A DNA stretch of 64,000 nt from an uncultured Bacteroides sp. GTDB taxonomy: Bacteria > Bacteroidota > Bacteroidia > Bacteroidales > Bacteroidaceae. The notes beneath the pieces were generated by a model. The model saw only the letters and a program-made list of their open reading frames with translations. It did no database searches and was not told the origin of the DNA. The stretch spans positions 1 through 64,000 of the forward strand of contig CAMTPA010000002.1 in the NCBI GenBank assembly GCA_947074275.1. Direction: 5' to 3'. The number at the start of each line of letters is the position of its first letter. Position 1 is the first letter of the stretch. Position numbers and translations under genes: made by a program. This document shows positions 11,535 to 63,159 of the stretch, one piece after another.

Positions 11535-11622
11535 AGTTTCACCCTGTTGAAACAAAAGTTTCTCCCCCTTGGAACTAAAGTTTCACGGCCTTGAAACAAC
11601 AGTTTCATCGAACAGAAACTGA
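11535..11622. repeat. four-unit tandem array, 22-nt period, palindromic units
   Basis: Four consecutive 22-nt units begin at 11535, 11557, 11579 and 11601, each starting AGTTTC. Units 1, 3 and 4 contain an inverted GTTTC...GAAAC; unit 2 has the variant GGAAC. The period is exact with no spacer. The array lies between the convergent bacterioferritin and clpB genes, just before the terminator. It matches the architecture, not the sequence, of the array at 49419. Confidence 0.85.
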
Positions 11623-27498: not shown

Positions 27499-27542
27499 GC
27501 ATCGCAAGCGTAGCCACCGTGCTATGCTTGCGATGTTTTTTT
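27499..27542 (+). terminator. terminator after GH43
   Basis: ATCGCAAGC / GCTTGCGAT stem with inner TAG/CTA pairing, then eight T. Its T run merges with the left end of the dispersed repeat. Confidence 0.85.
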
Positions 27543-27634
27543 AGATAGCTATATCCCGTTTGGTGGCAAGGCCTTGCCAGCGCGGTAGATAGGCCTTGTC
27601 AGGTCGGTAGGTAGGGCTTGCCACCAAAATGCCT
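27539..27634 (+). repeat. dispersed element copy A with 22-nt internal units
   Basis: The segment 27539-27628 is 80/90 identical to the reverse complement of 40638-40727. Inside, three units of exactly 22 nt start at 27569, 27591 and 27613, each opening AGGCCTTG or AGGGCTTG. Perfect outer arms GGTGGCAAG / CTTGCCACC let the whole core fold. It lies after the GH43 terminator and before the phosphatase promoter. Confidence 0.85.
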
Positions 27635-40637: not shown

Positions 40638-40727
40638 TTTGGTGGGTAGCCCTATCTACCGACCTGGCAAGGCCTACCTACTGCGCTGGCAAGCCCTTGC
40701 CAGCAAACGGGATATACCTATCCAAAA
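40638..40727 (-). repeat. dispersed element copy B
   Basis: The reverse complement is 80/90 identical to 27539-27628. It has the same ungapped length and internal 22-nt phrasing (GCAAGGGCTTGCC, GTAGGCCTTGCC, ATAGGGCT). As in copy A, it lies after the stop of one gene (helicase) and before the promoter of the next co-directional gene (AsmA). Confidence 0.85.
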
Positions 40728-43736: not shown

Positions 43737-44906
43737 ATGAAATACAATTTTGATGAAATAATAGACCGAAAAGGTACAGACTCAGTAAAGTGGGACGGTG
43801 TAGAAAACATTTGGGGTAGAAACGACCTTACGGCAATGTGGGTGGCGGATATGGATTTTCGTACCGCTCCGTGTGTGATAGAGGCTTTGCGCAGACGCCT
43901 CGAACACGAAGTGCTTGGCTATACTTTTGCTTGCGAAGATTGGTACACCTCCATCACTCATTGGGTGAAATCACGCTACGGATGGGCAATCACACACGAG
44001 ATGCTCACTTTTATGCCAGGCATTGTGCGTGGTTTGGCTTTTGCCATTCAGTGCTTCACACAAAAAGGCGATAAGGTTTTGGTGATGCCTCCTGTTTATC
44101 ATCCCTTTTTCTTAGTGACCGAGCACAACGAGCGAGAAGTGGTTTACAGTGCGCTCGACTTGATTGACGGGCAATACCGCATCAACTTTGATAGATTAAA
44201 ACAAGATGTACAAGGATGTAAATTGTTTATATTAAGCAATCCGCACAACCCCGGTGGACGTGTGTGGAGCAAAGAAGAGCTGGCGCAGTTGGCTGCTATT
44301 TGCCAAGAGAGTGGAACAATTGTGATTTCCGATGAAATTCACGCCGACCTCACGCTTCCACCTCACAAACACACCACTTATGCGCTTGTATCAGAGCAAG
44401 CACGGATGAACTCGTTGGTGTTTATGTCGCCCAGCAAGGCTTTCAATATGCCGGGGGTAGCCAGTTCGTATTGCATCATCGAAAACCCCGAACTCAACCG
44501 TCGTTTTCAGTCTTATATGCAAGCGAGTGAGTTTAGCGAAGGGCATTTGTTTGCTTACCTCACAGTGGCTGCGGCTTATAGCAATGGTAGTGAGTGGCTC
44601 AGTCAAGTGATAGACTACATCAAAGGCAACATCGATTTTACAGAAGAGTATCTTCAACGTTTTATACCACAAATCAAGATGATTCGTCCGCAGGCTTCTT
44701 ATCTCATCTTTTTGGATTGCAGAGATTTGGGATTAAATCAAGAGCAGCTTAATAAACTATTTGTAGAAGAAGCACGTTTGGCACTCAACACTGGGACTAC
44801 TTTTGGAAAAGAGGGTGAAGGTTTTATGCGTCTCAATGCGGCTTGCCCCCGCAGTGTGCTCGAAAAAGCGTTGCAACAATTGAAAGAGGCGGTGGAAAGG
44901 AGATAA
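43737..44906 (+). CDS. MalY/PatB-family PLP-dependent C-S lyase
   Basis: Fold-type I pyridoxal-phosphate enzyme of 389 aa, usually acting as cystathionine beta-lyase. The family start (FDEIIDRKGTDSVKWD), the substrate region MWVADMDFRTAP, the PLP-binding NPHNPGGRVW, and the Schiff-base Lys in SPSKAFNMPG are present. It would release homocysteine, pyruvate and ammonia from cystathionine or degrade cysteine to sulfide. metY lies 4 kb downstream, so sulfur amino acid functions are loosely grouped, but they are not cotranscribed. Confidence 0.9.
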   Translation: MKYNFDEIIDRKGTDSVKWDGVENIWGRNDLTAMWVADMDFRTAPCVIEALRRRLEHEVLGYTFACEDWYTSITHWVKSRYGWAITHEMLTFMPGIVRGLAFAIQCFTQKGDKVLVMPPVYHPFFLVTEHNEREVVYSALDLIDGQYRINFDRLKQDVQGCKLFILSNPHNPGGRVWSKEELAQLAAICQESGTIVISDEIHADLTLPPHKHTTYALVSEQARMNSLVFMSPSKAFNMPGVASSYCIIENPELNRRFQSYMQASEFSEGHLFAYLTVAAAYSNGSEWLSQVIDYIKGNIDFTEEYLQRFIPQIKMIRPQASYLIFLDCRDLGLNQEQLNKLFVEEARLALNTGTTFGKEGEGFMRLNAACPRSVLEKALQQLKEAVERR

Positions 44907-63088: not shown

Positions 63089-63159
63089 TGGGCTATGGTG
63101 TAATGGTAACACTACAGATTCTGGTCCTGTTATTTCTGGTTCGAGTCCAGATAGCCCAA
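63089..63159 (+). tRNA. tRNA-Gln (anticodon CUG)
   Basis: Full cloverleaf: acceptor TGGGCTA / TAGCCCA, with the weak U1-A72 pair typical of tRNA-Gln; D stem GTGT / ACAC; anticodon arm ACAGA-TTCTGGT-CCTGT giving CUG; T arm TCTGG-TTCGAGT-CCAGA; discriminator A; CCA not encoded. The base pair closing the anticodon loop (31-39) is an A-C mismatch. Reads CAG codons. Confidence 0.95.

Follow-up and report, generated by a model that had tools for sequence, protein, structure and literature searches.

A lineage-specific, high-copy repeat of 22-nt palindromic units in an uncultured Bacteroides species, with a BIME-like build and the probable behavior of a miniature mobile element

Introduction

The repeat described here has features in common with three known systems. 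Like the REP, BIME and REPIN sequences, it consists of short imperfect palindromes that are extragenic, high in copy number and set in regularly spaced clusters in either orientation, and it also has their mosaic composition and their extreme differences in abundance between relatives (PMC2817692, PMC3116915, PMC3733652). Clustered, high-copy, extragenic imperfect palindromes are what we find in both of its known carriers, the genome studied here (G000) and a second species of the genus (G160). Nevertheless, the unit here is of 20+2 nt and comes in sets of 3-4, neither carrier has a Y1/RAYT gene, and the unit parse reveals no unpaired GTAG or CGTC foot, the GTAG lying inside the pairing word GGTAGATAGG. 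GTAG repeats have been listed in other phyla, the Bacteroidetes appearing only with CGTC repeats (PMC3733652). The element works like a BIME or REPIN, yet it lacks two of their defining features, the RAYT and the unpaired foot.

The second system is BrickBuilt, a MITE of Porphyromonas gingivalis, which we take to belong to the same order and which is likewise intergenic and species-limited, with an internal tandem repeat of similar length, inverted ends and long predicted stem-loops (PMC4596501). BrickBuilt is composed of 23-nt plain direct repeats in 1-22.8 copies, with a long non-repetitive leader and tail and IS5-type ends (PMC4596501), whereas the element here has 22-nt palindromic units, mostly 3-4 of them, no leader or tail, and GTTTGG rather than GAGACC ends. 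Since both the ends and the unit length differ from the published table, we dismiss identity with BrickBuilt. The third system, the FopS paralogous small RNAs of Bacteroides thetaiotaomicron, is multicopy and intergenic too and comes from a related group, but in these RNAs a single-stranded 5' region is combined with one terminator hairpin (PMC11697453), and there are none of the tandem 22-nt palindromes seen here; this difference in structure excludes a FopS identity. Nor is the element a known Rfam family: at the gathering score it was unmatched, and only a tRNA (63089-63159) was found.

Structure of copy A

The window, that is, the whole 64,000-nt stretch of DNA that was analyzed, contains the following features.

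27499 to 27536, plus strand: terminator hairpin of the GH43 gene, 16 pairs and a T run, with copy A directly after it
27539 to 27634, plus strand: copy A in the bounds of the earlier reader, the element with its outer extension; 80/90 to copy B, 40 places genome-wide
27559 to 27570, plus strand: left terminal arm TTTGGTGGCAAG, complementary to 27617-27628; its GTTTGG end is conserved in both species
27617 to 27628, plus strand: right terminal arm CTTGCCACCAAA, which pairs with the left arm in predicted folds
27562 to 27581, plus strand: unit 1, GGTGGCAAGG-CCTTGCCAGC (unit parse)
27584 to 27603, plus strand: unit 2, GGTAGATAGG-CCTTGTCAGG (unit parse), preceded by the spacer GC
27606 to 27625, plus strand: unit 3, GGTAGGTAGG-GCTTGCCACC (unit parse), preceded by the spacer TC
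40638 to 40727, minus strand: copy B, which matches copy A
40641 to 40704, minus strand: copy B core (locus L002), three units, 64 nt (unit parse)
11536 to 11619, plus strand: four-unit GTTTCA-N6-TGAAAC array, a second word set, related to copy A in architecture only

Most of what an earlier note had read from this DNA could be reproduced. Aligned without gaps, copy A (27539-27628) and the reverse complement of 40638-40727 agree at exactly 80 of 90 positions, as claimed; the runner-up place in the window, both strands considered, reaches 51/90. The claimed 22-nt phrasing is found by Tandem Repeats Finder as period 22 in both copies (27569-27623 in A, 40648-40697 in B), the outer arms TTTGGTGGCAAG and CTTGCCACCAAA are indeed complementary, across 12 bases, and the hairpin at 27499-27536, the terminator of a GH43 gene that ends upstream, directly precedes copy A. 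The note gave the length of the element correctly and missed its regular inner structure, three 20-nt quasi-palindromes separated by 2-nt spacers. The unit motif has 4 matches in the window, against 0.02 expected from shuffles. Folded as DNA, the plus strand of copy A beats 200/200 dinucleotide shuffles (z -3.75); folded as RNA, it beats 193/200 shuffles (z -2.2).

Copy number and mosaic composition

Two copies inside 64 kb could be the product of a local duplication between two spots, the reading that the earlier note would have preferred had the genome contained just these two. A BLASTN search of its own genome with copy A gave 44 matches at 40 separate places on many contigs, which establishes the dispersed family that the note had proposed. 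A 19-base half-junction pattern had 196 matches in G000, as opposed to 3 for the reversed control; 148 of the 196 fall in 59 sampled elements, giving an estimate of ~78 elements, and the corresponding estimate for G160 is ~81. Because the family is genome-wide by both measures, local duplication within the window is ruled out as the source of the pair, and we leave it practically no probability. The elements parsed were 59 from G000 and 44 from G160, a sample of 103. Because several G000 elements (L089, L091, L093, L098) are situated at contig ends or close to them, the true number of copies is probably higher than the count; at L093 (end of G000:C124) the contig stops inside the element and runs into AGATCGGAAGAGCACACGTCTG, which resembles a sequencing adapter that stayed in the assembly.

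Two 10-nt half-sites placed back to back make up one unit, an imperfect palindrome of 20 nt, and a 2-nt spacer after it brings the pitch to 22 nt. Elements of G000 mostly have 3 or 4 units, and 35 of the 44 from G160 have 4. The half-site words are few: GSTGGCAAGG is present in both genomes, GGTAGATAGG or GGTAGGTAGG are the G000-type words and GGTGAGTAGC or GGTGACCACG the G160-type, the word set having changed between the two. The inverted ends GTTTGG...CCAAAC are conserved in both species, and a weaker outer TATA..CCCG sequence is common to them as well. Against dinucleotide shuffles, the folds of the sampled elements have mean z values of -3.6 and -4.4.

The copies resemble each other only modestly, with a median pairwise likeness of 74% in G000 and 66% in G160, and of 85% and 79%, respectively, between nearest neighbors. 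Despite this, exact blocks of 30-53 nt are common to otherwise different copies and certain word positions are 95-99% invariant, which points to a reshuffling of whole 10-nt words between copies, the copies being mosaics. Identical words are depleted in adjacent half-sites (23 vs 41.5 expected in G000; 20 vs 38.9 in G160). We do not read this depletion as selection against perfect hairpins, nor do we rely on it, because it also arises when a unit made of two different words is duplicated in tandem.

Dispersal and the question of a mobilizer

Contigs C49 and C4 of G000 have in common, letter for letter, 88 nt that run from GTTTGG to TATAGCTA between unrelated flanks; this block defines the moving unit at this pair and is a recent duplication into an unrelated spot. 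Moreover, for eight of the G000 sites the flanking genes could be located in 1.2 Mb sampled from the close relative G163, where all eight spots lack the element, and at the copy B spot in another relative, G102, synteny is kept around a short gap that lacks the element. The dispersed miniature element that the earlier note had suspected is thus supported by the 40 places, the exact 88-nt pair and the eight empty G163 spots, and of the two further signs that it had named, empty sites were found. Target duplications, the other sign, were searched for and not detected: there was no excess of 2-9 nt flanking direct repeats at symmetric offsets 0-30. Of the usual features of a MITE, the element therefore displays terminal inverted repeats and dispersal with empty sites, and no target duplication.

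The Y1/RAYT transposase (PF01797) had 0 matches in G000 and G160, whose assemblies are 93% and 88% complete, and with Y1_Tnp missing from both carriers we reject a RAYT-driven REPIN. Transport as plasmid or phage cargo is likewise dismissed, there being no match to the element in plasmids and phages and no copies in viral contigs by exact pattern. An IS-derived MITE, mobilized by a DDE transposase that recognizes its ends as has been proposed for BrickBuilt, would account for the inverted ends, the intergenic position, the internal tandem repeat and the copies in the tens, and BrickBuilt itself occurs in what is presumably the same order (PMC4596501). Nevertheless, the GTTTGG ends are unlike the IS5-type GAGACC ends of BrickBuilt and target duplication was not detected, and we consider this origin quite improbable.

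One G160 element (L053) is flanked by orthologs of genes on two G000 contigs, each of which lies beside an element (L007, L016). A rearrangement through the elements is one possible explanation of this arrangement.

Genomic context

Overlap with an ORF of 100 aa or more is seen in only 3 of the 103 elements sampled. When a simple ORF rule is used for gene calling, the gaps that hold elements are tandem in 28 cases, divergent in 15 and convergent in 10 in G000, and 26, 8 and 9, respectively, in G160, classes close to those of the window's own gaps. A terminator-like hairpin within 60 nt and directed at the element accompanies 5/56 in G000 and 3/43 in G160. Given these counts, and gap classes like the local background with 15 divergent cases, the earlier suggestion that the element settles just behind terminators does not hold as a general rule; it describes a property of copy A.

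The same data bear on whether these are RNA elements, either transcribed hairpin arrays that affect transcript stability or small RNAs. In favor of such a role, the folds are stabler than shuffles, and 28 G000 and 26 G160 elements are located between co-directional genes. Divergent gaps are also occupied, however, a strong terminator precedes copy A, Rfam gives no match and the FopS small RNAs differ in structure, all of which makes an RNA role very improbable.

Species range and shared sites

In a BLASTN comparison of 160 genomes, G160 was the only other carrier among the 159 other species of the genus, 158 of the 160 lacking the family at the sensitivity used. A 38-base pattern matched G000 alone among 399 genomes of the taxonomic family, and in a scan of a contig collection the GGTAG family had no named carrier.

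About eight of the G000 elements sit at gene ends that are occupied in G160 too. A rough estimate, not a test, which uses 112 flanking genes and assumes the gene counts, would lead one to expect ~2. Pairs of elements at such common sites have a mean likeness score of 21.8, much the same as randomly paired elements of the two species (21.6), whereas likeness inside one genome is greater (scores 34.1 and 32.8). Both independent insertion at favored spots and conversion of old sites fit these results.

Other word sets with the 22-nt pitch

At the spot that corresponds to copy A, the relatives G161 and G163 have a four-unit GTTTCA-N6-TGAAAC array with a 22-nt pitch and G102 has a decayed three-unit GTTTCA array. 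The GTTTCA pattern has 140 matches in G000 and, at 22-nt pitch, matches in 90/160 genus genomes, with tens to >200 in many, although genomes with one or two may be chance cases; the reversed control gave almost none. Among the GTTTCA chains in 1.2 Mb of G163, 11/14 have exactly four units. The array at 11536-11619 looks like a member of a large repeat family, of which our literature searches found no description. In the contig collection, the strict pattern was found in one Porphyromonas MAG, as a perfect array (L204; CAMCJO010000067.1, 5069-5128), so the GTTTCA family extends beyond the genus. This match, together with gene content, suggests that the DNA belongs to the order Bacteroidales. 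A third palindrome family (GATAAC), GATAACTGTTAACAGTTATC, forms 35 clusters in 1.2 Mb of G163; in 32/32 close pairs the palindromes are exactly 44 nt apart, or two 22-nt pitches, with a 24-nt stretch between them. The G163 gaps that match two G000 element sites hold this family. The middle of the palindrome pairs is TA-rich; an example (L246) is on G163 contig C1 near 44454-44520.

Perhaps these several word sets with one 22-nt architecture form a single undescribed superclass, in which shared machinery reads the pitch and the palindrome, and not the sequence itself, while word sets turn over between lineages; this we offer tentatively, as a doubtful possibility. We found no matching repeats in the Bacteroides literature that was searched.

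The regularity of the arrays also raises the question of whether they are functional DNA sites, the 10-nt words being half-sites of a multimeric DNA-binding protein with a nucleoid, supercoiling or insulator role. Selection would then preserve the arrays at particular intergenic spots, with a constant pitch and number of units, and let the word set drift. The pitch is indeed fixed at 22 nt and the unit number nearly so (four units in 35/44 G160 elements and in 11/14 GTTTCA chains of G163), all 32 closely spaced GATAAC pairs keep their 44 nt, and some word positions are 95-99% invariant; furthermore, the ~8 elements at G160-occupied gene ends show no extra likeness (21.8 vs 21.6) and three relatives hold GTTTCA arrays at the copy A spot. 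On the other hand, the elements are not tied to one gene-gap class, and the family is absent from 158/160 genus genomes (at the sensitivity used) and from the sampled taxonomic family. We retain such a function, as an unlikely alternative, because of the fixed pitch, the fixed unit number and the shared spots.

Discussion

The explanation that we prefer, with a probability of roughly 0.62, is that copy A belongs to a lineage-specific, high-copy, non-coding repeat with a BIME-like build and the behavior of a non-autonomous miniature mobile element. The family has a modular 22-nt anatomy, conserved inverted ends, ~78 copies and one exact 88-nt duplication, and the element is absent from the matching sites in relatives. 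We imagine that an enzyme acting in trans, and not of the RAYT/IS200 type, would recognize the hairpin-forming ends and copy the element into intergenic DNA, and that recombination or conversion between copies would then reshuffle the 10-nt words into mosaics of 3-4 units. Recent transposition must be rare, because most copies are only ~85% alike to their nearest neighbor. A host function at copy A is probably absent, and the element may be kept between genes simply because it is harmless there. Against the reading as a mobile element stand the lack of a target duplication and the absence of a Y1 transposase in both carriers, as well as the gene ends common to G000 and G160, which exceed the rough chance estimate and would not result from random insertion.

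If this explanation is correct, BIME-like mosaic palindrome arrays would flourish in one of the major phyla of the gut in the absence of RAYT, the transposases that account for such arrays elsewhere, and another mobilizer must exist. The repeats also show where the assembly breaks and where rearrangements may occur. It is the presence of several word sets on one architecture that is the interesting part, and the 22-nt pitch common to these unrelated sets makes possible a search for a protein that recognizes the pitch.
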